From a virus, in IMG/VR virus record IMGVR_UViG_3300049445_000074, positions 1-33,565 of that record: a DNA stretch of 33,565 bases. One strand, given 5' to 3'. The position numbers were made by a program, and so were the translations under genes. Position 1 is the first letter of the stretch. Each line of letters starts with the position of its first letter. The notes under the pieces were generated by a model. That model saw only the letters and a program-made list of their open reading frames with translations, made no database searches and had not been told where the DNA came from. Shown here piece after piece: positions 3,065 to 32,926 of the stretch.

Positions 3065-3066
3065 AT

Positions 3067-3695
3067 CTACCTCCTGGTATTTGACTTTCGGTTCTCTTCC
3101 TCAATCTCCTTTATCCGTTTGGCCTCGACGACCATATCCATTCCATATACAAAGAACGAATCCTGGTCGAAGAGTCCGCCCGGCTGAGGGAGGCAGTGCA
3201 TATGCTCACAAACGTTGACTATGCCTATGAGCTGTGCAGCTAGGCGTCCGTCTTCAGTAGCGGACGGTGTTCTGCTGGCTTCACTTCGACCGCTGTTGAG
3301 GATGAGCTTGAAGACCTCTGCTCGGAGTTTGGGAGGTTACTCTCCCAGTCGTGTAGGTTCTCGATCAAGTTCGCGATCTCGTCGCCAACCATGCCATCGA
3401 GCTGGTCGACGTCGATCGGGTTCTTGAAGTCGAGCCGCGTCCCGTTGTCGTCCTTGTCCAGGTTGTGATCGACGACACAGCAAGCGAGCTCGAACGACGC
3501 GACGGCCGTCTGTGCCTGCTTGACCTGCATCGACGACTGCTTGGTTCGCTGGTCAGCCTGCATGGACATGGTCATAGCAATGTCCTGGCGGTGCAAGCGC
3601 TCGCCGTACGACATACGACGTAGCTTGACCCAGCCGCCAGGACATGACTGAAGATCGAACTTCTGTGGAACTGTAGACACTGTTGCGTTTGGCAC
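3067..3695 (-). CDS. Tail assembly chaperone, long form made by -1 frameshift
   Basis: This is the equivalent of lambda gpGT. It shares its N-terminus with the short form (3240-3695), slips back one base at CCCAAAC (3333-3327), and continues in the -1 frame. The extension begins LRAEVFKLILNSG, passes the short-form stop, and ends with a charged helix (EAKRIKEIEEEN) at a TAG at 3069-3067, three bases before the tape measure GTG. The -1 frame has a TAA just upstream of the slip site, so the extension cannot be reached without slipping there. Long and short chaperones normally coat the tape measure protein while the tail tube assembles. The gene order major tail protein, chaperones, tape measure is the standard one. 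Confidence 0.88.
3240..3695 (-). CDS. Tail assembly chaperone, short form
   Basis: This is the lambda gpG equivalent, a scaffold that binds the tape measure protein and is absent from mature virions. I chose the GTG at 3695 as start because GGGAGG lies 7 bases upstream; the more distal ATG at 3746 has no good ribosome site and would add 17 very basic residues. That gives 151 residues. The middle is helical and Gln-rich. The C-terminus (residues ~120-151) is a Ser-rich acidic tail that differs from the frameshifted product. It sits between the major tail protein and the tape measure gene. Confidence 0.85.
   Translation of the reverse strand: MPNATVSTVPQKFDLQSCPGGWVKLRRMSYGERLHRQDIAMTMSMQADQRTKQSSMQVKQAQTAVASFELACCVVDHNLDKDDNGTRLDFKNPIDVDQLDGMVGDEIANLIENLHDWESNLPNSEQRSSSSSSTAVEVKPAEHRPLLKTDA
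3327..3333 (-). promoter_or_regulatory. Programmed -1 ribosomal frameshift site CCCAAAC
   Basis: Read on the minus strand in the zero frame this is C CCA AAC, a perfect X XXY YYZ heptamer. Both tRNAs can re-pair as CCC AAA after slipping. It is the last usable slip point after a TAA in the -1 frame and before the zero-frame stop at 3242-3240. Confidence 0.88.
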
Positions 3696-3754
3696 TTTCG
3701 TCCTCCCTTTAGACTTGTGCCTTCTTCTTGTGCGGCTTACTGGCATCTATCTAC

Positions 3755-4693
3755 TTACAGGTGAGGTGTGATGGTTTCTTGCGTCTTGTAGATGATGTCG
3801 TACTCGCTGCCCGACCCATCCAAGACGGACTGGTAGGTGATCGAGGCGCGAACCAGGTCACCCTGACCAGATAGCGGAACCTGGTACACGTCCTTGATGC
3901 CTGCGAACACGTCGAACGTGATACCGTTGTTAGCACCTGCAGCGACAGCCACCGTCAGCTTCTGCGCAGCGACCGACTGGAACAAGGCGTAGTCGCTCTT
4001 GTCGAGGAAGTCACGCGAAGCGGTCATCTGCGTCGAACGTTCTCCGTACGCGACGAACTGCGCACCTCGAGCGTTCTTGAGTCGGTACTGAGCAGCGCCA
4101 GCGTCGTCGACGGTGAACGAGAACGTGTCCATGTCGGTAACGACCGTCGGGTTCGGGATCTGAATGCTCCACGAGCCAGGACCGTAAGGCACCGACGTCG
4201 GCCAAGTCGCTGTCGGCACCGACTGCGTAGCTTCCGACAAGCCGATTATGTCGGCTTGGAACTCGAGGACGTTGTTGTTCACGGTGAAAGTCTGCTTGGT
4301 CACACCGCAACCCGCGTAGCCAAAGACCACGCCGTTACGGACGACAGTGATCGACATCGTTCGCGGAGGCACAGCAACCGATGTTGGCGTGTAGGTGTAG
4401 ACGAAGTTAGTCGCGCCTGTCTTAACACCTACGGCACGAGAACACTCCGTGAAGTAGAGGCACGTGTCTTCCGTTGCCTCCATCGTGAGCGTGCCTTCAA
4501 CGTCGAAGTCACCTGCTACAACGCCGATCTGGGCAGCTGATTGCCGAATCGGTCTGCGGTAGTTGTTCTGCTCCTTGTACTCCAACGTCTCTGACAGAAT
4601 CGGGACGTACTTCGTCGGCGGTACATACGTACCGACGACTGTCTCGAAGGCGATGCCGATCAGGCCACCTGCACCGATACCGTACTGAGTCAC
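3755..4693 (-). CDS. Major tail (tube) protein
   Basis: This 312-residue protein should polymerise into the tail tube. It begins MTQYGIGAGGLIGIAFE, uses the phrase VGTYVPPTKYVPI near residues 20-33, and is almost entirely beta-rich. Those features, and its place just upstream of the chaperone pair, are typical of actinophage and Gram-positive siphovirus tube proteins. It starts inside the end of the 97-residue gene upstream (4-base overlap ATGA). No extra Ig-like decoration domain is obvious. Assignment rests on context and overall character. Confidence 0.82.
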   Translation of the reverse strand: MTQYGIGAGGLIGIAFETVVGTYVPPTKYVPILSETLEYKEQNNYRRPIRQSAAQIGVVAGDFDVEGTLTMEATEDTCLYFTECSRAVGVKTGATNFVYTYTPTSVAVPPRTMSITVVRNGVVFGYAGCGVTKQTFTVNNNVLEFQADIIGLSEATQSVPTATWPTSVPYGPGSWSIQIPNPTVVTDMDTFSFTVDDAGAAQYRLKNARGAQFVAYGERSTQMTASRDFLDKSDYALFQSVAAQKLTVAVAAGANNGITFDVFAGIKDVYQVPLSGQGDLVRASITYQSVLDGSGSEYDIIYKTQETITPHL

Positions 4694-4983
4694 TTCTCAC
4701 CACCTTCGTTCGTCTCGTCGTTGCCCTCGTCGCCGACCTTCTCGACCTTGACGCCGAAGATGTTGAGTTGTGTCGGGTCCTTACCACGTGCAGGCATGTG
4801 CACCCGACGGCCCGTCTCGGGATGCGCATCGGAGAGATTGACTACCGAGTTGATAGAACGGAACCGCTCCACCTGCTCATCGTCAATCTCTGTAGTCGTC
4901 CCGTTGTGGAACGTCCCGAGACCGTGGATGTATACGTCTTGATCACCTAGATTCGGATGATCGACAATCACTCGGTATGTCAT
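4690..4983 (-). CDS. Small head-tail region protein, function unknown
   Basis: This 97-residue protein is not assigned to a family. It begins with a beta-rich part (TYRVIVDHPNLGDQDVYIHG) and ends with a strongly acidic, Gly/Asn-rich tail. It lies between the tail terminator candidate and the major tail protein and overlaps the latter by 4 bases, so it is probably translationally coupled to it. Its position suggests a minor tail or connector component. That is inference from context only. Confidence 0.75.
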   Translation of the reverse strand: MTYRVIVDHPNLGDQDVYIHGLGTFHNGTTTEIDDEQVERFRSINSVVNLSDAHPETGRRVHMPARGKDPTQLNIFGVKVEKVGDEGNDETNEGGEK

Positions 4984-4992
4984 TTACGCCAC

Positions 4993-5448
4993 CTACACCT
5001 GTGCTGGGAATGTTGTCTTACTCTGGGATTCGAACGTCAACCTAGCCCCCATCATGAGGGATCCACTCTTGGTAATCATTCCCGGTTCGTTCTGTGTACA
5101 TAGCACCGAGAAGACATTTCCTCCCAAGAGCAAGTCACTGTGTATCAACGTCTCGATAGCATCAGCCAATGTCGTTGCACCGTGGAGGTTCGCCTGCACA
5201 TCTTGGATCTTGCAAAAGTACACCAAGACATACGTCTCGAACGTGTTCAACGTCCTGAACGTAGCACCCTGAAACTCGCGCTTCTTGTTCCCGGGAGACA
5301 CGCACAACGCAGGCGTATTAGGAATTAGTTCCTGGTCTCCATACCAAACACTCTTCACGCCCAGAGCGGTCATGTTGGCAGAGATGAGAAGCTTCTGGTA
5401 GATGTAGTTCGCGACGACTTCGGAGCTATCGGTATTAGGTCCAGGCAT
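4993..5448 (-). CDS. Probable tail terminator / tail completion protein
   Basis: The 151-residue product has the expected size and place for the protein that caps the tail tube at the head-proximal end, directly before the tube gene. It has a helical N-terminus (residues 8-30), then alternating strands, with LNTFETYVLVYF near the middle and a helical ADAIETLIHSDLLL segment, as in small alpha/beta terminator folds. Its start overlaps the end of the upstream gene by 79 bases in another frame, which is longer than elsewhere in this operon. A structure prediction would separate terminator from other neck proteins. Confidence 0.6.
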   Translation of the reverse strand: MPGPNTDSSEVVANYIYQKLLISANMTALGVKSVWYGDQELIPNTPALCVSPGNKKREFQGATFRTLNTFETYVLVYFCKIQDVQANLHGATTLADAIETLIHSDLLLGGNVFSVLCTQNEPGMITKSGSLMMGARLTFESQSKTTFPAQV

Positions 5449-6065
5449 AACAACCCCAACCTAGCAACGATACGCTCGTTCAACCAGATCTCAAACTCTG
5501 TCTGAATCGCGTCCAAGTCTTCAGTCTGTACCATCGCAAACGGTCGTGCAGGAATATAGGCACGAAGACCACCACTAAGTACCTGGTCCATCATGGTCTT
5601 GAAGCCTTCAGCGGAAGTCGCACCTGCACTAACGGCTGACGAACTTCCGTAGCCTGCCTGGTGTATGCCTCCGTACCAGATCTTGTCTGGCAAGCTCAAG
5701 ATAGCTGCCTGGGTCTGGGTCACGGTCCAGATGTTGAACTGTCCCATGGTCTTGTAGAGCAGTCCAGACCTAAGCAGAGGATCAGAGACAGGGAACCTAG
5801 TCTTGGGGTCTCGAGCCTTCACAATCAGCGTCGCATCAGACAGCGGAGTCCACCCCGTAGGCCTACCACCAGCAATGAAGTTCTTCTGGATGCTAGGTGC
5901 TACGACTCGCTGGATCGAACGCTTCAACGGCTCACGAAATGATCTGATATCAATGTCAAGGGTGTTAAATGCCTTAGCAGACATGGCGATCGTAGGGGTA
6001 AACGAATATCCGATGTTGACCATACTGTCAACTCGGACACCGTTACCCGTTATGGTCGTCGCCAC
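5370..6065 (-). CDS. Virion morphogenesis / head-tail connector protein (HK97 gp10 or Mu gpG-like)
   Basis: The 231-residue protein shows the usual pattern of the phage virion morphogenesis family: a helical N-terminus, GWTPLSDATLIVK around residue 70, a LLRSGLLYKTM segment, IWYGGIHQAGYG near residue 130, and AYIPARPFAMV near residue 170. Members act at the head-tail joining stage. Its last 26 codons overlap the next gene in another frame and read as a Ser/Arg/Thr-rich tail that may be dispensable. It overlaps the upstream connector gene by one base. Confidence 0.75.
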   Translation of the reverse strand: MATTITGNGVRVDSMVNIGYSFTPTIAMSAKAFNTLDIDIRSFREPLKRSIQRVVAPSIQKNFIAGGRPTGWTPLSDATLIVKARDPKTRFPVSDPLLRSGLLYKTMGQFNIWTVTQTQAAILSLPDKIWYGGIHQAGYGSSSAVSAGATSAEGFKTMMDQVLSGGLRAYIPARPFAMVQTEDLDAIQTEFEIWLNERIVARLGLLCLDLIPIAPKSSRTTSTRSFSSLPT

Positions 6066-6547
6066 TAAAACACCTTACCCATGCCGAACTTAGCCGGACC
6101 CAACGAGTTGTCGTTGCAATCCGTATTCATTCGCCATGCATCCCAAGTCGAACTGGTATCTGTCGGGTAAAACACAGGAGCTACTGCAGGACTGTTAGGC
6201 GATATTTCCGCTATTGAAACTGCACCACTGATAATGTCGTTCAGCAGTTGAGTTCCCCAGGTCCTAAGCGTTAGACCATAACTCGCGCCGCGCTGCTCCG
6301 ATATCACTTCCGAGTAGGACCTGTCGAATAGCCAACCGGCGTATATCATCGACATGACCTTTTGAACAATTGCTGGAGTAGTAGTAGCATCAATCCATAG
6401 CGGGACAAACGAGGCGTAGGTCTCGGTTAGCTTCCCGAGAACTTCGCTCGAGACCTGCGCCTCGAGTCCCGCGTCTAGAGAGGTGACGGTCAGCTTCGTC
6501 GACTCGAGCCAGGTCTGAACCTGTGTAGTGGTAATGTGAGCCGTCAA
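6065..6547 (-). CDS. Head-tail adaptor (gp6-like / Mu gp36-like)
   Basis: The 160-residue protein is mostly helical in its first 100 residues, with the phrase MSMIYAGWLFDRSYSE in the middle. That matches the helical adaptor family that docks under the portal. The C-terminal 50 residues are Pro/Ser/Asp-rich and probably extended. It lies in the expected slot between the capsid block and the gp10-like protein and is spaced 14 bases from the preceding gene. Assignment is by pattern and gene order. Confidence 0.68.
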   Translation of the reverse strand: MTAHITTTQVQTWLESTKLTVTSLDAGLEAQVSSEVLGKLTETYASFVPLWIDATTTPAIVQKVMSMIYAGWLFDRSYSEVISEQRGASYGLTLRTWGTQLLNDIISGAVSIAEISPNSPAVAPVFYPTDTSSTWDAWRMNTDCNDNSLGPAKFGMGKVF

Positions 6548-6561
6548 CGAAGCCTCCTCTC

Positions 6562-6852
6562 CTACGAACTAGAACCGGTGGCGTTCTTAGGCGCCTTAGG
6601 GTCCACAGGGACGCCCTGCTGAGTCGCTGCGAGTTGCGCCTCGAGCTCAGCAATGCGAGCGTCACGAGGATCTTCGTAACCCTCACCAGCAGCCCTTGCA
6701 GCTAGGACGTTGGGGTCATCCTCTCCACCCTGAATGACCACGTTGCCACGTTCCAGGAAGTCTGCCCACTGGTCGGGGTCGAAGTCCTCCTCCTTAACAG
6801 GAGTTCCGGGGGGCGTGTCCGCTCCCAGTTCGGTATACGCTACGTACGTCAT
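6562..6852 (-). CDS. Small acidic head-region protein, function unknown
   Basis: This 96-residue protein follows the capsid gene after 8 bases. It has an acidic N-terminal half with DFDPDQWADFLERGNVV, then a short coiled-coil stretch (DARIAELEAQLAATQ, about residues 66-80), and a Lys/Pro/Ser-rich tail. Small proteins like this are common between capsid and connector genes. I do not recognise the family. A capsid-associated or assembly role is inferred from position. Confidence 0.72.
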   Translation of the reverse strand: MTYVAYTELGADTPPGTPVKEEDFDPDQWADFLERGNVVIQGGEDDPNVLAARAAGEGYEDPRDARIAELEAQLAATQQGVPVDPKAPKNATGSSS

Positions 6853-6860
6853 GTTACCTC

Positions 6861-7994
6861 CTAGCCGACGAAGCCACCGCTGAGAACACCGGTGAACAGG
6901 AAGCCGCAGATGGACTTGTTGTTGGTGTCGAGCCCGATCAGCTCGAGGTCATAGCGCTGACGGAACCTGACGATGTCAGATGCCCGACGCTCTTCCCTCC
7001 ACCTGTCGACGATTCCACCACCGAGGGCGTTGTCAGTCATGCCCGTGTTACCGAAGTCGGCAGGGCTGAGCCCAGTCGCACCGTTAGCACCATCATCGAT
7101 GCCTTGACCCGAGAACGCGCCGGAGCCGAACCCTAGGCCTCCAGCACCCCCACCGCCGAAGCCCCATGTGAACTGGTAGGCGAACGCGGGCACCTTGAGA
7201 CCCGGACGCGGAGGCGTGTACGCGAGCAGAGCCTCGGTGTTCCAGAGGTACTGCAGTGCCAGAACCTGTCCAGGGTTGTTAGTCGCGATACCGAAGCCGG
7301 GAACGACGACGTTGTTCAGGCCTAGCAGCGACGCTACCAGATCCGGAGTCAGCACGGCACGTTCGACGTACTGGATCCGAGTGATGAAGTCCTGAGCGTC
7401 CTCGAGAGCCGACATGACCTTGTAGGGGATGATCGCCTGGTTGGGCGAGAGGAACGACAGCTTGTGAACCAGCCGCATCGCCACCCTGAAGTCCTTGATG
7501 GGCGTCGCCGTAGCGTTGCTGTCCCACAGGGGCCCGAAGCCGGAAGTCGTACCCGGAATCGCTGTCAGGCTCGCGTTGTAGTTCGCCGCAGTCGCGACCG
7601 TGTTGTAGATGCGGTACTCCTTGCCCAGCGCGATCCGCGAGGCAAGCATCTCAGCACCGTCGACGTCGGGGCTCAGCGGCGAGTCGGCGTTCTGCCGCTC
7701 TTCGTCCGTAACCGCGATCTGGAGCGCGTGCTCCTGTGCGTAGTAGCTATTGACGCTGACTGTGAGACCAGGAACTTCGTTAGCCTCAGTGCCAGGTGCA
7801 CGAGCGTCATCCAGAGCAGGGTACCACCCCTCGCGTCCCTGGAAGACGTAGTACTTGTCCGACTGCTTGGCGACGGGGACCGAAGGGAAGAGAACATTGC
7901 CCACCAGCCCTTCGTTCGGCCAAGCGACGCTGATCTGAGTGAGGACAACGTCAATGTGAACGTTGCCAGACCCAGTTGGGCTGTAGACTGCCAT
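6861..7994 (-). CDS. Major capsid protein
   Basis: This 377-residue protein should form the head shell. It carries the typical early phrase WPNEGLVGNVLFPSVPVAKQSDKYYVF (quoted here as a continuous region near residues 25-50) and a helical segment with EMLASRIALGKEYRIYN. A later domain ends in DIVRFRQRYDLELIGLD. A Gly-rich stretch (residues ~275-315) may be a flexible loop. It follows the protease and decoration genes, as in Mu-like head modules. Its first 18 residues are nearly repeated at the start of the small protein at 9628-9933. Confidence 0.9.
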   Translation of the reverse strand: MAVYSPTGSGNVHIDVVLTQISVAWPNEGLVGNVLFPSVPVAKQSDKYYVFQGREGWYPALDDARAPGTEANEVPGLTVSVNSYYAQEHALQIAVTDEERQNADSPLSPDVDGAEMLASRIALGKEYRIYNTVATAANYNASLTAIPGTTSGFGPLWDSNATATPIKDFRVAMRLVHKLSFLSPNQAIIPYKVMSALEDAQDFITRIQYVERAVLTPDLVASLLGLNNVVVPGFGIATNNPGQVLALQYLWNTEALLAYTPPRPGLKVPAFAYQFTWGFGGGGAGGLGFGSGAFSGQGIDDGANGATGLSPADFGNTGMTDNALGGGIVDRWREERRASDIVRFRQRYDLELIGLDTNNKSICGFLFTGVLSGGFVG

Positions 7995-17096: not shown

Positions 17097-17125
17097 TTGT
17101 AAACCCGCGAGTCATAGACTATAAT
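17097..17125 (+). promoter_or_regulatory. Rightward promoter for the first early gene
   Basis: TTGTAA (17097-17102), a 17-base spacer and TATAAT (17120-17125) drive the gene at 17197. It diverges from the terminase promoter about 63 bases away, so one regulator could control both. Confidence 0.78.
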
Positions 17126-17196: not shown

Positions 17197-17463
17197 ATGT
17201 CTCAGCTCAGCCCAATCACCCCGTTCTATGCCGCCAAGGTTGCCAACATCCGGCTCGCCTCTGAGGGCATCGAGAAGACCGTCACGCCGCAGATGCTGTA
17301 CACGTACCACAAGAAGGGCACGATCGCGAGTGCCACCGTCACCGGCTCCGACAAGAAGTACTTCGACGGGGACGCCTTCAAGACCTGGCTGAACCAGTAC
17401 GTCACCGGGGGTGCCACCAACACCCGCACCGACGTCGAGGCGCTAGCCGCGCAGTACATGTAG
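17197..17463 (+). CDS. Small helix-turn-helix protein, strongly codon-biased
   Basis: The 88-residue protein has an excisionase/MerR-like DNA-binding pattern: VTPQMLYTYHKKGTI (about residues 29-43) as the helix-turn-helix, a short wing, then KKYFDGDAFKTWLNQYV as closing helix. It shares the ITP opening and the PQ-M-Y-Y-K-G motif with the 152-residue protein at 24819. Almost all codons end in C or G, unlike most neighbours, which suggests high expression. It has its own promoter, and a hammerhead ribozyme begins on the base after its stop. It could be a nucleoid-type or regulatory protein; the target is unknown. Confidence 0.85.
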   Translation: MSQLSPITPFYAAKVANIRLASEGIEKTVTPQMLYTYHKKGTIASATVTGSDKKYFDGDAFKTWLNQYVTGGATNTRTDVEALAAQYM

Positions 17464-17536
17464 GGCGAAACGGCGAGGGGGCCCGCAAGGGCCCCCAGAC
17501 CGTCTGCGTGGGATAGCCGCCACGCACTGATGAGCC
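17464..17536 (+). ncRNA. Type II hammerhead ribozyme HHR1
   Basis: Order is stem II 5' strand GGC (17464-17466), GAAA (17467-17470), stem III, cleavage triplet GTC (17502-17504), stem I, core CTGATGA (17527-17533), stem II 3' strand GCC (17534-17536). Stem III pairs ACGG (17470-17473) with CCGT (17500-17503), then an internal loop, then an 8-bp GC stem (17477-17484 with 17489-17496) closed by a GCAA loop. Stem I is a perfect 7-bp TGCGTGG/CCACGCA. All core bases are canonical. Predicted cleavage is after C17504. Confidence 0.9.
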
Positions 17537-17554
17537 AGGCTAAGGAGGAGCAAC

Positions 17555-17761
17555 GTGAACGTTCGCCGCGCTATGCGGCACAGGGTGGGTACGCTGGTAG
17601 GCACCCTATGCCTCGTCGTCACGTTCGGAATGGGGTACGCCCTCGGGTGGCACTCCCACGCAACCCACGTCCCGCCGCCCGTGTGCATCGTCGTCCACGC
17701 GAATGGGGCCCCGGCACCCGCGTCCTGCACGGACCCCGGTTCGTACCAGGTTACGCCATGA
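17555..17761 (+). CDS. Small single-pass membrane or secreted protein
   Basis: The GTG at 17555 follows AAGGAGG, which itself lies just after the hammerhead. The 68-residue product has a basic start (NVRRAMRHR), a hydrophobic helix (about residues 11-30, VGTLVGTLCLVVTFGMGYAL), then a His/Pro-rich outer segment with two Cys that could form a disulfide. No family is recognised. It overlaps the next gene by 4 bases (ATGA). Confidence 0.78.
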   Translation: MNVRRAMRHRVGTLVGTLCLVVTFGMGYALGWHSHATHVPPPVCIVVHANGAPAPASCTDPGSYQVTP

Positions 17762-17928
17762 GGTGCGGATACTGCCCCGAGCCGGCTATCTACTGGATGG
17801 CGTGGAAGACGATCGGCAGGCAGAAGGGTGCGCCGGTGTGCCAGAAGCACAAGGATGAGCGGAACGTGAAGGACAACTGGGGCGAGTACCCGACATTCGA
17901 GCCCTTCGAGCCGGATGTGGCCACCTAG
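17758..17928 (+). CDS. 56-residue zinc-binding protein candidate
   Basis: The ATG at 17758 overlaps the upstream stop. The product begins MRCGYCPEPAIYWMAW and later has VCQKHKDER, so CxxC plus CxxH could hold one zinc ion in a treble-clef-like knuckle. The C-terminus is acidic and Pro/Phe-rich. Short proteins with this layout are common in actinophages; the role is unknown. A longer in-frame reading from 17530 would start inside the ribozyme core and overlap the membrane protein gene, so I rejected it. Confidence 0.72.
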   Translation: MRCGYCPEPAIYWMAWKTIGRQKGAPVCQKHKDERNVKDNWGEYPTFEPFEPDVAT

Positions 17929-17933
17929 GACGC

Positions 17934-17983
17934 CAAGTTGGTCGAGGGGCCGAACAAGCCCCACGTGCCCCTCGACCGACTTG
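17934..17983 (+). terminator. Strong inverted repeat, likely terminator
   Basis: CAAGT-GGTCGAGGGG (17934-17949, one unpaired base) pairs with CCCCTCGACC-ACTTG (17968-17983). It gives a 15-bp stem with an 18-base loop, followed by a short CTTTCCT run. It sits just before a new promoter. Confidence 0.72.
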
Positions 17984-18010
17984 CTTTCCTAGCGAAAGCC
18001 GCTGTATAAT
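17981..18010 (+). promoter_or_regulatory. Rightward promoter
   Basis: TTGCTT (17981-17986), an 18-base spacer and TATAAT (18005-18010), 28 bases before the ATG at 18038. The -35 overlaps the foot of the terminator stem. Confidence 0.75.
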
Positions 18011-18037
18011 TGAATTAAGCCCAAAAGAGGGGGTGCG

Positions 18038-18283
18038 ATGACAGCCCACAAGCGACGGTCAGGGGACCTGATAGTCTCCTACGACTGCAAGCAAGGTCGG
18101 CACGAGACCGAATGTCAGGAATGGCTTCGGCTCGCGGGTCTAGAAGATCCGATTCATTGCCACTGCAAGTGCCATCCGGACGACGGATGCGTTCCCACGA
18201 TACGTCGAAAGACACGTCGGAACCCCGTATGTACGTCCTGTTACCTTACCCATCCGGAAGGAGCCTGCGATGCTGTCAAGTGA
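18038..18283 (+). CDS. Cys/His-rich small protein
   Basis: The 81-residue protein holds nine Cys and several His, clustered as HCHCKCHPDDGC near the middle and CTSCYLTHPEGAC near the end, probably two zinc sites. The GAGGGGG just upstream is the ribosome site. No known family is recognised; a nucleic-acid or protein-binding zinc knuckle is plausible. It is first in a two-gene unit after its own promoter. Confidence 0.78.
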   Translation: MTAHKRRSGDLIVSYDCKQGRHETECQEWLRLAGLEDPIHCHCKCHPDDGCVPTIRRKTRRNPVCTSCYLTHPEGACDAVK

Positions 18284-18563
18284 CTGGCTGGAGTACATGG
18301 CAGGCATGGAACGTCAGATAGCGTCTCGGCCGGAACTCGCGCCTAAGAAGGGTCGTCGGGTTCAGGGCATGACCTCGCCGGCACAGAGAAGGGCACTCCA
18401 GCAGACTGGGAACTCGGTCCGGGCTATCTACCAAGAAGTCGGACCCCAGAACGGCGCGCAGATACGTCCACAGGGCCGCCAGGTACCTTTTACGGCCGAT
18501 TTGGGCGGAAACTGTGAAAAGACCATACCCACCGGCAAGAAGACCCAAAGTCGCAGGCGGTAG
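18270..18563 (+). CDS. Basic small protein, function unknown
   Basis: The ATG at 18270 has GGAAGGAG upstream and overlaps the preceding gene by 14 bases. The 97-residue product is strongly basic with an N-terminal helix (DWLEYMAGMERQIA), a central segment (TSPAQRRALQQTGNSVRAIYQE), and a Lys/Arg tail. It may bind nucleic acid, on charge alone. No family recognised. Confidence 0.7.
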   Translation: MLSSDWLEYMAGMERQIASRPELAPKKGRRVQGMTSPAQRRALQQTGNSVRAIYQEVGPQNGAQIRPQGRQVPFTADLGGNCEKTIPTGKKTQSRRR

Positions 18564-18877
18564 TTAGGGTCCCTACTTTAGGGCGTAGGCGCACACATCA
18601 ACGTAACGCACATTAGTTCACATACTACTTAATTAAGGGACGCTTTGACGCTTGCCGTAACTTCTACTAACTTTACCACTATATAACCACCATAAAGTTC
18701 TATAAGAAGACGATTGTGGTATATCAAGCGCCGTCATGTACCGGCCCGCTGGTTAACCTGCGGTTTTACATGCCACCCTTTTGTGCTTGCGGTTTCAGTC
18801 CACCTATAGAGTAACAGGCGCTACCTACCAAAACGACGTATATAATTGTAAATACAACGTCATTGTGTAACTTGGGG
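18564..18877. other. Non-coding AT-richer region
   Basis: No credible gene lies between 18564 and 18950. The stretch is AT-richer than the rest of the right arm. It holds a TATAAT at 18841-18846 without a good -35, a GACGT/ACGTC dyad around it, and otherwise nothing I can name. It may be a control or replication region, but no iterons were found by eye. Confidence 0.6.
18835..18861. promoter_or_regulatory. Dyad over a -10-like element, operator candidate
   Basis: GACGT (18835-18839) and ACGTC (18857-18861) flank TATAAT at 18841-18846. A protein bound to this dyad would cover the -10 element. Confidence 0.45.
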
Positions 18878-18907
18878 TTGTTTGTCCTATCTGCCCAGTG
18901 ATATAAT
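18878..18907 (+). promoter_or_regulatory. Rightward promoter
   Basis: TTGTTT (18878-18883), an 18-base spacer and TATAAT (18902-18907), continuing as TATAATAGAA like the promoter at 24748. The ATG at 18951 follows 43 bases later with AAAGGA as ribosome site. Confidence 0.75.
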
Positions 18908-18950
18908 AGAATCATACAGAGCAGCCCTAGCGCGAAAGGAACAGTAGCTG

Positions 18951-19370
18951 ATGGAGTTCGTTAACGAGAATACACCGCCACTGATTAAGAACACAGGCGG
19001 CAGAGCACCCAAGTACAACTGGGACGCGTGGCTAAGGCACAACCACACCGTTAGGCTTGTCGAGGGCGAAGACTTCGACTGTGCAGCGACGTCCATGCGG
19101 ATGATGTCGTACAACCAGGCCAAGAGGCGTGGCGGCAAGGTGTCCGTCTCGATCGGCCTCGACATACTGAGCCGTAACGTGGTCGAGATTACGTTCCAGC
19201 TTACCGAGACGACGATCAAGCGGCGCGAGCGTGAGCTGCGTGTCGCAGGTACCGAGACAGAACTACTTGACGACGCGGCGATAGTGTCAGGTAAGTGGGG
19301 ACCGGCAAAGACGTTCGAAGAGCCGGATCTGTTCCCTCAGGGTGTAGCCAAGGCGCCTCGTGAGGATTAA
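18951..19370 (+). CDS. Conserved-looking small phage protein, function unknown
   Basis: The 139-residue protein contains HNHTVRLVEGEDFDC (about residues 29-43) and YNQAKRRGGKVSVSIG. It looks well folded: a charged N-terminus, a beta-rich centre, and a flexible acidic tail. The basic YNQAKRRGG patch could contact nucleic acid. I do not assign a family. It is first after a promoter, so probably an early protein. It overlaps the next small gene by 11 bases. Confidence 0.78.
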   Translation: MEFVNENTPPLIKNTGGRAPKYNWDAWLRHNHTVRLVEGEDFDCAATSMRMMSYNQAKRRGGKVSVSIGLDILSRNVVEITFQLTETTIKRRERELRVAGTETELLDDAAIVSGKWGPAKTFEEPDLFPQGVAKAPRED

Positions 19371-19539
19371 CTGGCGCAACGATGCCACCAAGAACGATGC
19401 AGTCCGCTTCACCGATTGCACCTCCTGTGGAGTCGATGCAGGCAAGGTGTGCCGCACCCAGATGGGCGAGATCGCAGCTGCGATTCATGCACCGCGGTAC
19501 GATGCGGCGCGCGCCAAGGTGTCCAAAACTGGGCCTTGA
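19360..19539 (+). CDS. 59-residue zinc-finger protein
   Basis: This is read from the GTG at 19360 to a TGA at 19537-19539. The product has DCTSCGVDAGKVCRTQ followed by HAPRYDAARAK. The layout CxxC-xxxxGxxC and later HxxR is a recurring actinophage zinc-finger pattern. An alternative reading of this DNA in another frame as an N-terminal extension of the next gene is less convincing. The ribosome site (AAGG) is weak, so translation is probably coupled to the upstream gene. Confidence 0.72.
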   Translation: MRINWRNDATKNDAVRFTDCTSCGVDAGKVCRTQMGEIAAAIHAPRYDAARAKVSKTGP

Positions 19540-19565
19540 AAAAGCCTATGGGTCCCAGGTACAAT
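19536..19565 (+). promoter_or_regulatory. Rightward promoter
   Basis: TTGAAA (19536-19541), an 18-base spacer and TACAAT (19560-19565). The -35 overlaps the stop of the zinc-finger gene. The next ATG (19598) has AAAGGAGG. Confidence 0.72.
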
Positions 19566-19597
19566 TAATTGAGCGGGAAAAAGAAAGGAGGCACAGA

Positions 19598-19954
19598 ATG
19601 CCGAACATCGAAATATTCGAGCCGGACATGACCTTCAAGCCGATGAAGGGTGCACACCTCGTCCTGAACGAGAGCATCCTATCTTGGCTGCAGGGTCGGC
19701 TCGACGAAGTGCACGAGATCGGCGGATACGGCGAGATGGACGACAACGTCGAACAGGACGTCAAGGCCCTACTCGACGAGCTACTCAAAGTCGCCGACTG
19801 GTACGAGGTGAAGGACAGGTTCGGACGCAAGGTATTCGCGTCCCGACCGTACGCTGTCTCTGGGCAGCAGGAACAACGTGGCGAGCTTCGAGTCGGGGTC
19901 GTCCTGACGAGGGGCGAGCTCATGCTCGACATACGCGTCTGGGGCGTGTACTGA
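19598..19954 (+). CDS. 118-residue early protein, function unknown
   Basis: The ATG at 19598 follows AAAGGAGG with proper spacing. The open frame extends further upstream, but that extension lies over the promoter and another gene. The protein has an N-terminal beta part (IEIFEPDMTFKPMKGAHLVL), an acidic helical middle (DDNVEQDVKALLDELLKV), and a beta-rich end. It is a compact acidic alpha/beta protein of no recognised family, first gene after its own promoter. Confidence 0.8.
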   Translation: MPNIEIFEPDMTFKPMKGAHLVLNESILSWLQGRLDEVHEIGGYGEMDDNVEQDVKALLDELLKVADWYEVKDRFGRKVFASRPYAVSGQQEQRGELRVGVVLTRGELMLDIRVWGVY

Positions 19955-20082
19955 TGAGGACCTGGACAGACCAGTACGGCAACAGGCACGTACTGACACG
20001 AGACGGCGAGCACTACGTATCGCGCCGGCTACTCTGGGGCGACGTCGTCATCTACGGTCGCTACACGAAAGTGGGCACGTGA
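19954..20082 (+). CDS. 42-residue protein, function unknown
   Basis: Its ATG shares one base with the upstream stop, and its stop shares one base with the next ATG (TGATG at both ends), so it is coupled both ways. The product is basic and rich in Tyr, Arg and Trp (begins MRTWTDQYGNRHVLTRDGEH). It looks like a small beta hairpin. No function can be given. Confidence 0.65.
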   Translation: MRTWTDQYGNRHVLTRDGEHYVSRRLLWGDVVIYGRYTKVGT

Positions 20083-20330
20083 TGGCATCGCTAACGCGTG
20101 AAGAGGGCAACAGGTTCGTCGAAGCCCTCAACAAGCGCAGCCTATGTGCGTGCGCAGTCCTACGCCAGCTCTTGCAGCTCCGCGTGCCTGGACCGTACCT
20201 AGAGTGCGAGCGGCACAAGAACGTGCTCGTCGACGATGATTGCATACACCCAGGAGTGTTCGCCATGTTCGACGAACCAACGACACACTGCTACACGTGT
20301 GGCAGGGACATACCAGTAGAGGAGCTGTAA
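20082..20330 (+). CDS. Cys-rich small protein
   Basis: The 82-residue protein has LCACAVLRQ near residue 22, LECERHKN near 42, and HCYTCGRDIP near the C-terminus. CxxC-type pairs at both ends suggest zinc binding. An ATG at 20082 in a TGATG overlap was preferred over the GTG three bases upstream. No family recognised. Confidence 0.72.
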   Translation: MASLTREEGNRFVEALNKRSLCACAVLRQLLQLRVPGPYLECERHKNVLVDDDCIHPGVFAMFDEPTTHCYTCGRDIPVEEL

Positions 20331-20554
20331 TGCCAACCATGACGGAGACCGAGCTCAAGCAGGAGATTGTCAAGATGGTCGACTGCGGATGTCACACAGT
20401 CAGCCTCGAGGCAGTCGAGCGCGTGGCGAAGTACTTCATCCACGCAGGTAGGGCCGATCGCATGTTCGGACTCGAAGGGAACGATGAAGACGACATCGAC
20501 CTGATGTACAACTTCATCGTCTTCGACAGGAAGCTGGAGGTAACAGAGAAGTGA
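20330..20554 (+). CDS. 74-residue acidic protein, function unknown
   Basis: The ATG at 20330 follows GAGGAG and shares one base with the upstream stop. The product is helical: TETELKQEIVKMVDCGC, then VSLEAVERVAKYFIHAG, then an acidic loop and a closing strand. It overlaps the next gene by 4 bases (GTGA). No family recognised. Confidence 0.75.
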   Translation: MPTMTETELKQEIVKMVDCGCHTVSLEAVERVAKYFIHAGRADRMFGLEGNDEDDIDLMYNFIVFDRKLEVTEK

Positions 20555-21036
20555 ACCTGTTCGAGTTGTTCCAGGCCATGGAGGACCCCGATGTGTGGAG
20601 TCCCGAGAGGCAGGCAAGATCGATGGGCGTCGTAGTCAGGACGCAGTGGGGACAGTTCGGGGTCAAGGGCGTCAGCGTCACTGCTGACAAGGACACACTG
20701 CTGATCGAGACCGAAAAGGTCGAAGAGAACCTCCTGATGGTCCAGCTACGTCAGGAGTTCGAAGCGTACCTGCTCGAGGCTGCTGACGCCGAAGACCCCG
20801 ACGTGCTACTCACGCCGAAGGAGCGTATCAAGGACTTCGCGCTCTACACGTACATGTGCGAGGAGAGCCAGTTCTCACAGCTTCTCGCCCTGTGGACCGA
20901 ATTCGATGGGGCCGGGGACCTGACGAAGTTCGCCAAGTTCGTCGCCAATCGGTGCACAGAGCCACAGGGCGACGAGCGCGATGTCGCGATCGAGGGCATC
21001 ACAGACCCGAGCCTATACAACGACGAGGTGCGTTGA
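20551..21036 (+). CDS. 161-residue acidic protein, function unknown
   Basis: GTG start within a GTGA overlap. The protein is acidic, with a beta-rich first half and a helical second half (LMVQLRQEFEAYLLEAADA; CEESQFSQLLALWTEF). It has no Cys cluster or membrane segment. The mixture of a small beta domain and helices might mediate protein contacts, but no function is supported. It is tightly coupled to both neighbours. Confidence 0.78.
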   Translation: MNLFELFQAMEDPDVWSPERQARSMGVVVRTQWGQFGVKGVSVTADKDTLLIETEKVEENLLMVQLRQEFEAYLLEAADAEDPDVLLTPKERIKDFALYTYMCEESQFSQLLALWTEFDGAGDLTKFAKFVANRCTEPQGDERDVAIEGITDPSLYNDEVR

Positions 21037-21497
21037 TGAAGACAACAGCAGAGCTACGTCGAGAACTTCGTGAAGCGGAGCAGCGTGACGTGGACAACAG
21101 GGAGGCAGCTCGTAAGGCAACGCCGGTGAAGTACCAGTACACCATCGAGCCTGCGAAGCGCGAGAGTACCTTCGACAAGATATACGACGACACGTGCTGT
21201 ATGTACGAGATTCGTCGTACAGCCGTAAACCTCGAAGCTGCGGTAGCAGCAGGTCACGAAGAGTGGGAGCTTCGTGATGGCAGGATGCGCTACCTGTTCA
21301 ACTCGTGGGGAGGCAAGATCGTCACCGCAGTCGGTGGGGGTACGGTGTACATCGGCAGGGTCTGGAACGGCCCTGAGGACTACGCCGATGACAGGGCGTT
21401 CGAACAGATTAACGTCTTCCTCGGCGAGCACCCCGAAGGCGGCGACATCACAACGATCGTCGACGAGTTCCTCGCCATACGGAAACTGAACCAGTAG
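21036..21497 (+). CDS. 153-residue protein, function unknown
   Basis: The ATG at 21036 shares one base with the upstream stop. The N-terminus is a charged helix (TTAELRRELREAEQRDVDNRE, about residues 3-23), followed by a mixed domain with VYIGRVWNGPEDYADDRAF and an acidic helical end. No family is recognised. Its stop at 21495-21497 is one base before the second hammerhead, so its mRNA would be cut just downstream. Confidence 0.78.
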   Translation: MKTTAELRRELREAEQRDVDNREAARKATPVKYQYTIEPAKRESTFDKIYDDTCCMYEIRRTAVNLEAAVAAGHEEWELRDGRMRYLFNSWGGKIVTAVGGGTVYIGRVWNGPEDYADDRAFEQINVFLGEHPEGGDITTIVDEFLAIRKLNQ

Positions 21498-21498
21498 T

Positions 21499-21558
21499 GG
21501 ACGAAACCCATCGTCGTGAGACGTAGGGTCTGCGTCAGATAGGCGCACCGATGAGTCC
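21499..21558 (+). ncRNA. Type II hammerhead ribozyme HHR2 (CCGATGA core)
   Basis: Stem II GGAC (21499-21502) pairs with GTCC (21555-21558). GAAA is 21503-21506. Stem III pairs ACCC (21506-21509) with GGGT (21526-21529), then a 2x2 internal loop, then CGTC/GACG around a GTGA loop. The cleavage triplet is GTC (21528-21530). Stem I TGCGTC (21531-21536) pairs with GGCGCA (21542-21547). The core is CCGATGA (21548-21554), so the usual U4 is C. Predicted cleavage is after C21530. Confidence 0.85.
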
Positions 21559-21570
21559 TAGGAGAACAAC

Positions 21571-21792
21571 ATGACCGCAACGCCCGTCGTCGAGGACGTC
21601 GAACGCCCGAGGGCCACCGTCAAGGAGATCAAGGAGTACTTCGGCGAGCAGAAGAGCGTCCACCTCGACGGCACGCCCGTCAGCTGGATCGGCGAGCTCA
21701 AGGACCTGAAGGCCTCGCCGTCCAAGGCGGGTCACGCCACCGGGTACGACGACGTCGCCTACGGGCTGGCCGACGGCACGCTCACCTACTAG
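21571..21792 (+). CDS. 73-residue codon-optimised protein bracketed by ribozymes
   Basis: The product begins MTATPVVEDVERPRATVKEI and has an N-terminal helix (residues ~15-30) and a Gly/Asp-rich C-terminal half. No family is recognised. Codons end almost always in C or G, as in the genes at 17197 and 24819, suggesting high output. The ATG has GGAG upstream. Hammerheads lie 12 bases before the start and 2 bases after the stop, so self-cleavage would release this gene as a ~286-nt mRNA with hairpins at both ends. Confidence 0.82.
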   Translation: MTATPVVEDVERPRATVKEIKEYFGEQKSVHLDGTPVSWIGELKDLKASPSKAGHATGYDDVAYGLADGTLTY

Positions 21793-21794
21793 CA

Positions 21795-21844
21795 GAGCGA
21801 AACGCCGGGAGGCGTCTGCGGGTGAAGCCCGTACCGATGAGCTC
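21795..21844 (+). ncRNA. Type II hammerhead ribozyme HHR3 (CCGATGA core)
   Basis: Stem II GAGC (21795-21798) pairs with GCTC (21841-21844). GAAA is 21799-21802. Stem III ACGCC (21802-21806) pairs with GGCGT (21811-21815) around a GGGA loop. The cleavage triplet is GTC (21814-21816). Stem I TGCGGG (21817-21822) pairs with CCCGTA (21828-21833) with one G-T. The core is CCGATGA (21834-21840). Predicted cleavage is after C21816. It is the most compact of the three. Confidence 0.85.
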
Positions 21845-28970: not shown

Positions 28971-29320
28971 TGGATACCGAAACGCACGTCTCTAGGAACG
29001 GGCGCAGACACTACAGTCGTTCCGGTTCGAGTGGACTACTATGCGGCAAGTGGCTACCGCTACCGCATCCCGCACCGAAACCTGGAACAGAGATTCGTGA
29101 CTGCAAAACCTGTGCACGGATCCTAACCGAGGACGCAACCATCCTCACGATAGCGCTCACACATGACGCTAGAGAGCATCTACAGGAGTACGCCAGAGTA
29201 CATGGCTACACTGCAAGACGTGCAGCAGAGTACCTGCTTACGCTCACACTCGACAGGAACGTCATGACGGTCGAGAACCTCCGAAGGCTCCCGACGAAAG
29301 GAACGGTGCGTCCTCTATGA
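28970..29320 (+). CDS. Cys-containing protein with ribbon-helix-helix-like end
   Basis: The ATG at 28970 is in a TAATG overlap. The 116-residue product has a basic N-terminus, a single CKTCARIL knuckle (about residues 45-52, with an earlier LLCGKWLP), and a helical C-terminus (LTHDAREHLQEYARVHGY; RRAAEYLLTLTLDR) that resembles ribbon-helix-helix DNA-binding proteins. The last part could recognise DNA. It precedes the helicase with a 4-base overlap. Confidence 0.68.
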   Translation: MDTETHVSRNGRRHYSRSGSSGLLCGKWLPLPHPAPKPGTEIRDCKTCARILTEDATILTIALTHDAREHLQEYARVHGYTARRAAEYLLTLTLDRNVMTVENLRRLPTKGTVRPL

Positions 29321-30849
29321 TCACTCCGTATCCATTCCAGATGGAGTGCGTTGACAAGGTGGCAAAGCCCACTCTTGCGGGACGTCTCGTAGCGGATGAC
29401 ATGGGTCTCGGCAAGACGCTCGAGGGCATCCTGATCGACCTCGAACTTCGTGCAGGTAGACACTACCCTGGAATGGGCAAGACCTCTCCGCCCTACCAAC
29501 GCCCCACGCTGATAGTAGCTCCACAGGGTGTGCACGATACCTGGGACGAGCACATTCGGCTAGTTCACGACAGCTGGACCGAGTCAATTTTCGAGCGGAA
29601 CATAGCTATCGTCGATCCGAAAAATCGTCAGGCACTGATCGACCGGCTCAAGCAGAGGCCCTTGCCATGCTTCGCGATCGTGCACTATGAGGCCCTTAGG
29701 TTGATACCTGAGTTGGCCGACATCAAGTGGTTCCACATCATCTGCGACGAAGTGCATCGTGTCAAGAACCGTAAGGCACAACAGACTCAGGCCCTAAAGA
29801 GGCTCGACACGTTCTACAGGACAGGTCTTAGCGGAACGCCTGCAGACGACAAGCCTGCGGACATCTGGTCAGTGCTCAACTGGCTCTATCCCAAGGAGTT
29901 CAGGTCGTACTGGAAGTTCGTCAACACGTACTGCATAAACGAGCCGACGAACGGCAAGTACGGAAACACTTTCCGGAAGATCACAGGCGTCAACACGGCA
30001 GCGCTGCCTACACTCCATAAACAGTGGGAGCCGTGGTACATCCGACGTAAGAAGGAAGACGTCGCGATCGAGCTACCGCCAAAGACCTACACGACTCTCC
30101 ACGTCGATCTGCTTCCGCAGCAGCGCAAGGCGTACGACCAGATGCGGAAGGACATGATCGCCTGGGTAGGGGATCAGGAAGACACGCCGCTAGTCGCAGG
30201 ACAAGTCGTGTCACAACTTGTCAGGCTTCAACAGTTCGCCCTAGCCTCGGTAGAGTTCCAGGGCGAATACGTTTCCGACGTGTATCGCGCAGGTCGAGAA
30301 GAGGATCGTGGTATACGCCGGAAGGTCGTACTAACAGATCCGTCATCGAAGCTCGACAGACTCGTGGAACTGATAGAGGGGAATCCGAATGAACCTCTCG
30401 TGGTTTTTTCCCAATCACGAGGAATGGTCGAACTATGCGTGCGACGTCTACAATCTAAGGACGTTTCGATACGGCCTTATACTGGCTCGGTATCGAAGGC
30501 CGACAGAAGTGTGGCCGTCAAACAGTTTCAGGCAGGAGACGTACAAGTGCTCGCTGGGACTATTGCAGCTGGAGGTGAAGGTATCACACTCCACCGCGCA
30601 AGTACGGTCGTTTTTCTTGATCGAGCTTGGAACCCAACCCGGAACCGGCAAGCTGAGGATCGACTACACCGAATCGGTCAACTACGACCAGTTCAGGTAA
30701 TCGACTTCGTGGCACGTGATACGGTCGATATGGGTCGACTACAGCGCGTGGCCAACAAGTGGGAGAACCTCCTGTGGCTGCTTGGCGACAAGAGAGGTAC
30801 CCCCGCACCAGAGTTCGACACAATCACGCAAGCCATCCTAGGAGGATAG
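29317..30849 (+). CDS. SNF2-type DNA helicase/translocase
   Basis: The 510-residue protein has the full SF2 set: Q-region ITPYPFQMECV, Walker A DDMGLGKT (residues 27-34), TLIVAPQGV (motif Ia), DEVH (residues 144-147), LSGTP (residues 171-175), and a C-terminal lobe with LAGTIAAGGEGITLH, DRAWNPTRNRQAEDRLHRIGQ (motifs V-VI) and VQVIDFVA. SNF2 enzymes translocate on double-stranded DNA. In phages such enzymes usually act in replication or recombination. It is compact, with little beyond the core. It is the largest right-arm gene. Confidence 0.92.
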   Translation: MITPYPFQMECVDKVAKPTLAGRLVADDMGLGKTLEGILIDLELRAGRHYPGMGKTSPPYQRPTLIVAPQGVHDTWDEHIRLVHDSWTESIFERNIAIVDPKNRQALIDRLKQRPLPCFAIVHYEALRLIPELADIKWFHIICDEVHRVKNRKAQQTQALKRLDTFYRTGLSGTPADDKPADIWSVLNWLYPKEFRSYWKFVNTYCINEPTNGKYGNTFRKITGVNTAALPTLHKQWEPWYIRRKKEDVAIELPPKTYTTLHVDLLPQQRKAYDQMRKDMIAWVGDQEDTPLVAGQVVSQLVRLQQFALASVEFQGEYVSDVYRAGREEDRGIRRKVVLTDPSSKLDRLVELIEGNPNEPLVVFSQSRGMVELCVRRLQSKDVSIRPYTGSVSKADRSVAVKQFQAGDVQVLAGTIAAGGEGITLHRASTVVFLDRAWNPTRNRQAEDRLHRIGQLRPVQVIDFVARDTVDMGRLQRVANKWENLLWLLGDKRGTPAPEFDTITQAILGG

Positions 30850-32219: not shown

Positions 32220-32397
32220 CACTCCAACGTACGTAGTGGAGCTTAACGCAGAGTTCCTCGACGAAGATGCCGCAACGCGGTTCGAGGACAAGATCAGGAA
32301 GCTGCTAGAGGACGACAACATGCACGTTGTCTTCGCGCAACCTGGCCCAAAGACTCCTGAGGATGAACCTCAGGTCGAAAAAGATAGAGGTGATTGA
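32119..32397 (+). CDS. 92-residue protein, function unknown
   Basis: GAGGTAG precedes the ATG at 32119, inside the previous gene (101-base overlap). Residues ~35-75 look well folded (PTYVVELNAEFLDEDAATRF; EDKIRKLLEDDNMHVVF), a small alpha/beta unit; the first 30 are basic and less ordered, so the true start could lie later. No function recognised. Confidence 0.62.
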   Translation: MALMSRTPPLTGLYMQTLQIIRRWPPYLSGRHTDTPTYVVELNAEFLDEDAATRFEDKIRKLLEDDNMHVVFAQPGPKTPEDEPQVEKDRGD

Positions 32398-32398
32398 C

Positions 32399-32926
32399 AT
32401 GAGGAACAAGAGAGCGCTATTCGCAGTAGTGTCACTGACCGTAGGAGTACTGCTTACTGCGTGCCAGGGAGTCACGACATCAACGACAAGCGCACCTGCA
32501 ACGGTACAGGCTACGGCAGGATGTCCAACGGGGATGAAGCCTGACGTCAACGGGGTGTGCAACCCGGGAGGCAAGACACCTGCTACGCCGACGCAGAAGG
32601 CCAGCGTTCAGCTGACTGCTAGCCAGCAGCAAGCTGTCAACGCCGCTCAGGGGTATCTCAACGATGGTCAGGGATTCAGCTACAACGGCTTGATGAGCCA
32701 GCTCACATCCACCTATGGCGAGGGGTTCAATCAGGCTGACGCGAAATTCGCGATTGGCTATGTGCACCCAGACTGGGACTCGCAGGCCGTGATGGCGGCA
32801 AAGGGCTACCTGGCTGACGGTCAAGGATTCAGCAGAGCTGGCCTGATCGACCAGCTCACATCGAGCTACGGCGACGGGTTCACACAGGCCCAGGCGATAT
32901 ACGCCGTCAACAAGGTTGGTCTGTAG
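32399..32926 (+). CDS. Ltp-like surface lipoprotein, probable superinfection exclusion
   Basis: The 175-residue protein starts with a lipoprotein signal (MRNKRALFAVVSLTVGVLLTAC) whose lipobox LTAC would be lipidated on Cys22. A Thr/Pro-rich linker follows. Then come two copies of the Ltp/host-surface lipoprotein repeat: AVNAAQGYLNDGQGFSYNGL with LTSTYGEGF, and AVMAAKGYLADGQGFSRAGL with LTSSYGDGF. In Streptococcus phage TP-J34 the Ltp protein blocks injection of related phage DNA by acting on the incoming tape measure protein. The same role is inferred here. Confidence 0.85.
   Translation: MRNKRALFAVVSLTVGVLLTACQGVTTSTTSAPATVQATAGCPTGMKPDVNGVCNPGGKTPATPTQKASVQLTASQQQAVNAAQGYLNDGQGFSYNGLMSQLTSTYGEGFNQADAKFAIGYVHPDWDSQAVMAAKGYLADGQGFSRAGLIDQLTSSYGDGFTQAQAIYAVNKVGL

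Follow-up and report, generated by a model that had tools for sequence, protein, structure and literature searches.

Type II hammerhead ribozymes between genes of a tailed phage as candidate self-cleaving separators of neighboring cistrons

Type II hammerhead ribozymes were described by Perreault et al. (2011; PMC3088659), who also reported clusters of them flanking single prophage genes and cleavage of multi-hammerhead prophage transcripts in vitro and in E. coli, and who proposed that long phage transcripts are divided in this way into messages of gene length. In the haloviruses HF1 and HF2, a hammerhead site lies 13 nucleotides (nt) before a helicase start, and the 5' end of the transcript has been mapped to within 3 nt of this site (PMC3088659). 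Closely spaced hammerheads that flank small genes and are linked to phages were later called frequent, their role being acknowledged as an open question (De la Pena et al., 2017; PMC6155905). Here we describe three type II hammerheads in the IMG/VR virus record IMGVR_UViG_3300049445_000074, a 33,565-base stretch of DNA from an uncultured tailed phage that is called the window below and was analyzed at its full length. An earlier note on this DNA had regarded such a series of hammerheads as unusual, a view that does not hold against the clusters around phage genes published in 2011 (PMC3088659) and the frequency given in the 2017 review (PMC6155905).

The rightward, non-structural arm of the phage carries all three sites on the + strand, in the same orientation and between co-directional genes (Table 1). 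Each follows the type II plan, with an open stem II, loop-closed stems I and III and the order II-GAAA-III-UH-I-CUGANGA-II, and unconstrained RNA folding recovered the three-stem hammerhead fold at all three. Compared with the consensus core (C3 U4 G5 A6 N7 G8 A9, G12 A13 A14, A15.1-U16.1 and H17), site 1 is complete, and sites 2 and 3 differ at U4 only, where they have C (U4C). Site 1 starts 0 nt after a TAG stop codon (17461-17463) and ends 18 nt before a GTG start codon (17555); site 2 follows its TAG by 1 nt and leaves 12 nt to ATG 21571, and site 3 follows its TAG by 2 nt and leaves 11 nt to ATG 21856. When re-read from the sequence, the sites, stems, GNRA loops (GCAA, GTGA and GGGA), cleavage bases and stop and start distances were all as the earlier note had given them. 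Its letters for the core, C(T/C)GATGA, were also right, although it had passed over the non-consensus U4C of sites 2 and 3 without comment.

Table 1. Coordinates of the ribozymes, the genes beside them and nearby predicted elements in the window
Feature	Position	Strand	Basis or remark
Site 1, type II hammerhead, canonical CUGAUGA core; stem II 3 base pairs, stem III 4 base pairs plus apical hairpin with GCAA loop, stem I 7 base pairs	17464..17536	+	RF02276 match, fold, descriptor scan
Site 2, type II hammerhead, U4C core (CCGAUGA); stem II 4 base pairs, GTGA loop on stem III, loop I motif UCAGAUAGG	21499..21558	+	descriptor scan, fold; no Rfam match
Site 3, type II hammerhead, U4C core; stem II GAGC/GCUC, stem III 5 base pairs with GGGA loop	21795..21844	+	sub-threshold RF02276 match, fold, descriptor scan
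Predicted cleavage residue C17 (H17 after U16.1), site 1	C17504	+	sequence position
Predicted cleavage residue C17 (H17 after U16.1), site 2	C21530	+	sequence position
Predicted cleavage residue C17 (H17 after U16.1), site 3	C21816	+	sequence position
Site 1 predicted pseudoknot, loop I arm UAGCC	17514..17518	+	5 Watson-Crick pairs with 17538-17542
Site 1 predicted pseudoknot, tail arm GGCUA	17538..17542	+	runs directly into Shine-Dalgarno AGGAGG (17543-17548)
Gene for 88-amino-acid protein, upstream of site 1	17197..17463	+	no PHROG or Pfam match; 85% identical homologues in L125-L127
Gene for 68-amino-acid protein, downstream of site 1, GTG start, hydrophobic N-terminal segment	17555..17761	+	translation; no credible Pfam match
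Gene for 153-amino-acid protein, upstream of site 2	21036..21497	+	distant homologues in L134 and L135 without hammerhead
Gene for 73-amino-acid protein, between sites 2 and 3	21571..21792	+	found in conspecific contig only
Gene for 84-amino-acid protein, downstream of site 3, signal-peptide-like N-terminal segment	21856..22110	+	translation; Pfam match weak, sub-threshold only
Promoter-like TTGTAA-17-TATAAT, upstream of the site 1 gene pair	17097..17125	+	consensus scan
Promoter-like TTGAAA-18-TACAAT, nearest listed upstream of sites 2 and 3	19536..19565	+	consensus scan

A strict descriptor, which called for at least 3 base pairs (bp) in stem II and at least 4 bp in stems III and I together with C[UC]GAUGA, GAAA, A15.1-U16.1 and H17, matched exactly these three sites on both strands of the window, the widened core included, and gave zero matches in 400 dinucleotide-preserving shuffles of it. 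In 1.1 Mb of retrieved contigs, the descriptor matched 150 times in the real sequence and 0 times in the block-shuffled control. With the Rfam model of the type II hammerhead (RF02276), site 1 scored 40.1 bits, above the gathering cut-off of 37. Site 3 reached 21.8 bits, seen in a short search only, and site 2 gave no Rfam match in either the window search or a 451-base search; the likely main reason for these low or absent scores is that the core reads CCGAUGA, with C at position 4. For sites 2 and 3, whose cores depart at a conserved position from the consensus of the model, it is too harsh to treat a missing covariance score as grounds for rejection, as the earlier note had proposed. Its label of type II hammerhead nevertheless appears right, supported at site 1 by the Rfam model and at sites 2 and 3 by the complete architecture, the zero chance expectation, the identical placement and the recurrence of U4C with intact stems.

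This recurrence was found by scanning all IMG/VR contigs with one pattern in which a single core position was varied, which covers only the CGAAAC...GTCTGCG subset of hammerheads. Changes at U4 occurred in 45 stretches, among which 11 unique strict-pattern sequences had all three stems; all of these had C, and none A or G (two of the 11 come from a conspecific contig, where they are the counterparts of sites 2 and 3). In the same scan, none of the stretches with a change at C3 (37), G5 (7) or A6 (19) had the stems, which leaves U4C as the sole C3-A6 change that co-occurs with an intact fold (11 vs 0). Therefore, sites 2 and 3 look like a retained variant rather than debris, and they are probably working, perhaps slower, ribozymes. 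A viroid hammerhead with U4C has lower activity in vitro, yet is infectious and functional in vivo (PMC3088659). U4C hammerheads can escape standard Rfam annotation.

Searching IMG/VR by pattern and descriptor, with a pattern that required TGCG as the first bases of stem I and C as residue 17, yielded at least 130 unique type II hammerheads in viral contigs, the window's three included; these counts are lower bounds and not an unbiased census. Among the 130 listed, the median distance from the upstream stop codon to the first paired base of the ribozyme is 1 nt, many stop codons overlap stem II by one base, and a stop codon lies within 5 nt of the ribozyme start in 74%, compared with 4.5% at random same-strand places. 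A Shine-Dalgarno (SD)-like sequence and a same-strand start codon follow within 150 nt in 121 of the 130 (median 25 nt), against 47% at random places and 37/130 in the antisense control. The SD lies 0-29 nt after stem II (median 13), a looser arrangement than that on the stop-codon side. The mean predicted stabilities of the hairpins beside the cut were -11.6 kcal/mol for stem III and -9.9 kcal/mol for stem I. The same pattern matched 116 stretches in bacterial and archaeal genomes, only 4 of them fully structured, so that the motif there is mostly due to chance.

Among the matches listed, single contigs carry arrays of ten (L075), six (L051 and L121) or five hammerheads (L066 and L092), and Rfam searches of whole records gave several matches per record, confirming the arrays. 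The ten in L075 extend across ~5.6 kb (1650-7250) and have diverse stems. In L051 and L121, hammerheads stand before orthologous genes whose proteins are 67%, 60% (AAA ATPase) and 46% (DUF3150) identical, and a further one, in L092, stands ahead of a DUF3150 gene whose protein is 22% identical; their position before orthologous genes of divergent phages points to long retention at some places. The genes that follow hammerheads in these three arrays include those for an AAA ATPase, a MoxR-like ATPase and DUF3150. Some arrays hold near-copies, for example those of L061 and L051. In L048 (3493-3585), a half-hammerhead consisting of the 5' strand of stem II, GAAA and stem III stands in tandem directly before a complete one, which suggests local duplication. 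RF02276 had no match in four related or array-similar cultured phages (BcepNazgul, BUCT551, Wollypog and Rie18), and the array loci of L075, L051 and L050 had no DNA match among cultured phages.

Tertiary contacts appear to differ with the length of stem II. Where stem II has 3 bp, loop I can pair with the tail after stem II over at least 4 bp in 63 of 71 survey hammerheads, compared with 20 when tails were swapped, and this pseudoknot matches that described by Perreault et al. (PMC3088659); site 1 has one such predicted pairing (Table 1). The class with a 4-bp stem II, including sites 2 and 3, gave a weak signal (21/69 vs 9 with swapped tails), and no clear loop I-tail pseudoknot was found at these two sites. 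A recurring loop I motif, GUCANNUAGGC, occurs together with a 4-bp stem II and no evident pseudoknot in L006, L011, L020, L052 and window site 2. Hammerheads with this motif possibly form a separate tertiary-contact class.

For ribozymes of this architecture, placement, non-randomness and recurrence, processing and separate stability of cistrons would be the simplest role, and we consider it probable, on sequence grounds, that the three hammerheads act in cis and by self-cleavage separate neighboring cistrons of a polycistronic phage messenger RNA (mRNA). Filling the gaps between co-directional genes, each would fold as the polycistronic RNA is made, through stems I, II and III and, in site 1, the loop I-tail pseudoknot, and the backbone would be cut after C17. 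A few tens of bases past its stop codon, the upstream message would then finish with the stem III hairpin and carry a 2',3'-cyclic phosphate, and the downstream message would start with a 5'-hydroxyl group and the stem I hairpin just before its SD site. The cistrons would thereby become separate RNAs with hairpin-capped ends, uncoupled in stability and translation; in particular, the predicted cuts at sites 2 and 3 would free a 286-nt RNA (21531-21816) with the 73-amino-acid gene alone. Self-cleavage is very probable at site 1 and fairly likely at sites 2 and 3, where the U4C cores perhaps cut more slowly and cleavage may be partial. Such cutting may also protect the ends of the cut RNAs and may benefit the phage.

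Several points weigh against this reading. The flanking genes are presumed from their strand and spacing to be on one shared transcript. U4C slows the viroid hammerhead in vitro (PMC3088659). Computed SD accessibility showed no systematic change on cleavage (30 up and 28 down of 112), so that secondary structure by itself gives no sign of an effect on translation; cleavage as a switch that unmasks the SD is, on average, unsupported by these counts. As for the phage's own lineage, a 53-kb conspecific contig (>99.9% identical over the compared stretches) has the same three sites and no further hammerheads. In contigs L125-L127, whose DNA is ~80% identical, the site 1 gene pair is kept, and the gap is unrelated, of similar length and without a hammerhead; no Rfam match pointed to another ribozyme in its place, and gap folding in L125 and L126 was no better than that of shuffles. 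The contigs of these close relatives end before sites 2 and 3, so this comparison covers site 1. Beside the homologues of the site 2 upstream gene in L134 and L135, there were no hammerheads. Since site 1 is absent from relatives with ~80% identity, it is not essential, and the relatives and distant homologues without hammerheads indicate that the ribozymes were gained or lost recently in this lineage. Here they are useful at most, not essential.

The stop-codon rule makes a serious rival of a ribosome-coupled switch, in which a terminating ribosome would cover stem II and the GAAA strand and block folding, and the cut would be made only when the upstream gene is idle; the ribozyme would then read out upstream translation and uncouple the downstream gene when that is low. 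The median of 1 nt across the 130 listed hammerheads, the many stop codons that overlap stem II by one base and the looser downstream spacing (SD 0-29 nt after stem II, median 13) all fit such gating, and the site 1 pseudoknot arm abuts the SD, so that initiation could also open the ribozyme. However, tight packing of genes in the genome would by itself yield the same spacing, fast hammerheads may cut between ribosomes anyway, and we regard this switch as unlikely, though to be taken seriously. It also seems rather unlikely that stop-abutting phage hammerheads are translation-gated cutters in general, which would cut once the upstream cistron is untranslated, and more slowly where the core is U4C, as in sites 2 and 3. 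If this were true, ribozyme arrays would be a cistron-by-cistron clock of phage mRNA processing.

Alternatively, the ribozymes might be passengers that spread among gaps and phages by recombination and bring no benefit, tolerated since cuts between cistrons are harmless. The absence of site 1 from its ~80%-identical relatives, the variation of flanking genes between phages and the near-copies in the arrays of L061 and L051 are in line with such spread. Retention before orthologous genes at 46-67% protein identity, and before the DUF3150 gene at 22%, together with strict placement and orientation, argues the other way; furthermore, structured copies with C3, G5 or A6 changes, as expected of decaying elements, were not seen in the CGAAAC...GTCTGCG subset scanned. 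We therefore judge the ribozymes quite unlikely to be passengers of this kind. It is improbable that U4C adjusts sites 2 and 3 to late or conditional cutting, with a mix of cut and uncut RNA and with regulation, rather than processing itself, as their role: U4C does recur with intact stems and the same placement, and slows cleavage while keeping function in the viroid (PMC3088659), but no ligand domain or conserved extra structure was seen, and tertiary contacts may fully compensate for the change. That the sites are chance lookalikes, whose stable hairpins I and III serve only as 5' and 3' mRNA stabilizers or weak terminators, is highly improbable in view of the unpaired core conserved in all of them, the zero chance expectation, the Rfam match at site 1 and the lack of U-tracts after the hairpins.

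Separation of cistrons by self-cleavage thus stays our preferred reading, and the window offers a compact case in which to test it: it has three ribozymes, two types of core and one gene that would be released by cuts on either side. Rules that can be tested also come from the survey: the ribozymes begin at the stop codon and finish a short way upstream of the ribosome-binding site, they form arrays of up to ten among the matches listed, and one observed change, U4C, is allowed in the C3-A6 turn.

The phage itself has leftward structural genes (terminase, portal, head protease and major head protein by PHROGs, tail tube by Pfam) and a rightward arm of mostly uncharacterized small genes. Its terminase shares 34-35% identity with Arthrobacter and Microbacterium phage terminases, and a DNA search of the phage collection found no close relatives of the window. 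The earlier note had called the genes around the hammerheads early; they do lie in the non-structural arm, which includes a helicase gene at 29317-30849, but 'early' goes one inferential step further. The small proteins directly after sites 1 and 3 have a hydrophobic, signal-like N-terminus, and the protein after site 2 is without one. Promoter-like matches in the window are, in overall number, not above shuffle expectation, and the promoter/terminator scan of the window found no + strand terminator-like site. Between two gene blocks, ~390 bases (18564-18950, +) without a listed + strand open reading frame are A+T-richer and contain several TATAAT-like boxes. A match to the FdoG1 thermometer at 19374-19544 (22.1 bits vs a cut-off of 50) overlaps genes and was taken as chance. 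Further to the right (32327-32926, +) is a gene for a 199-amino-acid protein with two Lipoprotein_Ltp repeats (host cell surface-exposed lipoprotein, PF07553, E 8.5e-30). In phages, the Lipoprotein_Ltp family is associated with superinfection exclusion.

The glmS ribozyme also influences the fate of an mRNA by cutting itself close to a start codon, but it needs a metabolite cofactor; its structure is unrelated, and no such cofactor domain was seen at the phage sites. With the described type II hammerheads (RF02276; PMC3088659), the window sites share the open stem II, hairpins I and III, the phage setting and, at site 1, the full CUGAUGA/GAAA/UH core and the predicted loop I-tail pseudoknot, whereas sites 2 and 3 have C4, fall below the Rfam cut-off or are missed, and combine a 4-bp stem II with no clear pseudoknot. 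In the open-access papers searched, we found no stop-codon rule with numbers, no arrays of as many as ten and no spectrum of core changes in phages. The HHphage hammerhead of HF1 and HF2 (PMC3088659, PMC7230728) likewise lies 13 nt before a start codon, with an in vivo 5' end near the cleavage site, but it belongs to an archaeal virus, has a core insertion and precedes the first gene of a transcript rather than standing between genes. The viroid U4C hammerhead (PMC3088659) has the same core change as sites 2 and 3 and differs in serving viroid replication, not phage mRNA. Also comparable are the clustered prophage hammerheads (for example the Agrobacterium tumefaciens ardA triple, Clostridium scindens and Azorhizobium; PMC3088659), in which two or three ribozymes surround single small genes on one transcript; in the window the genes and the phage are others, and all the ribozymes are of type II and stand directly at stop codons. 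The window sites add to this already published class of clustered phage hammerheads.

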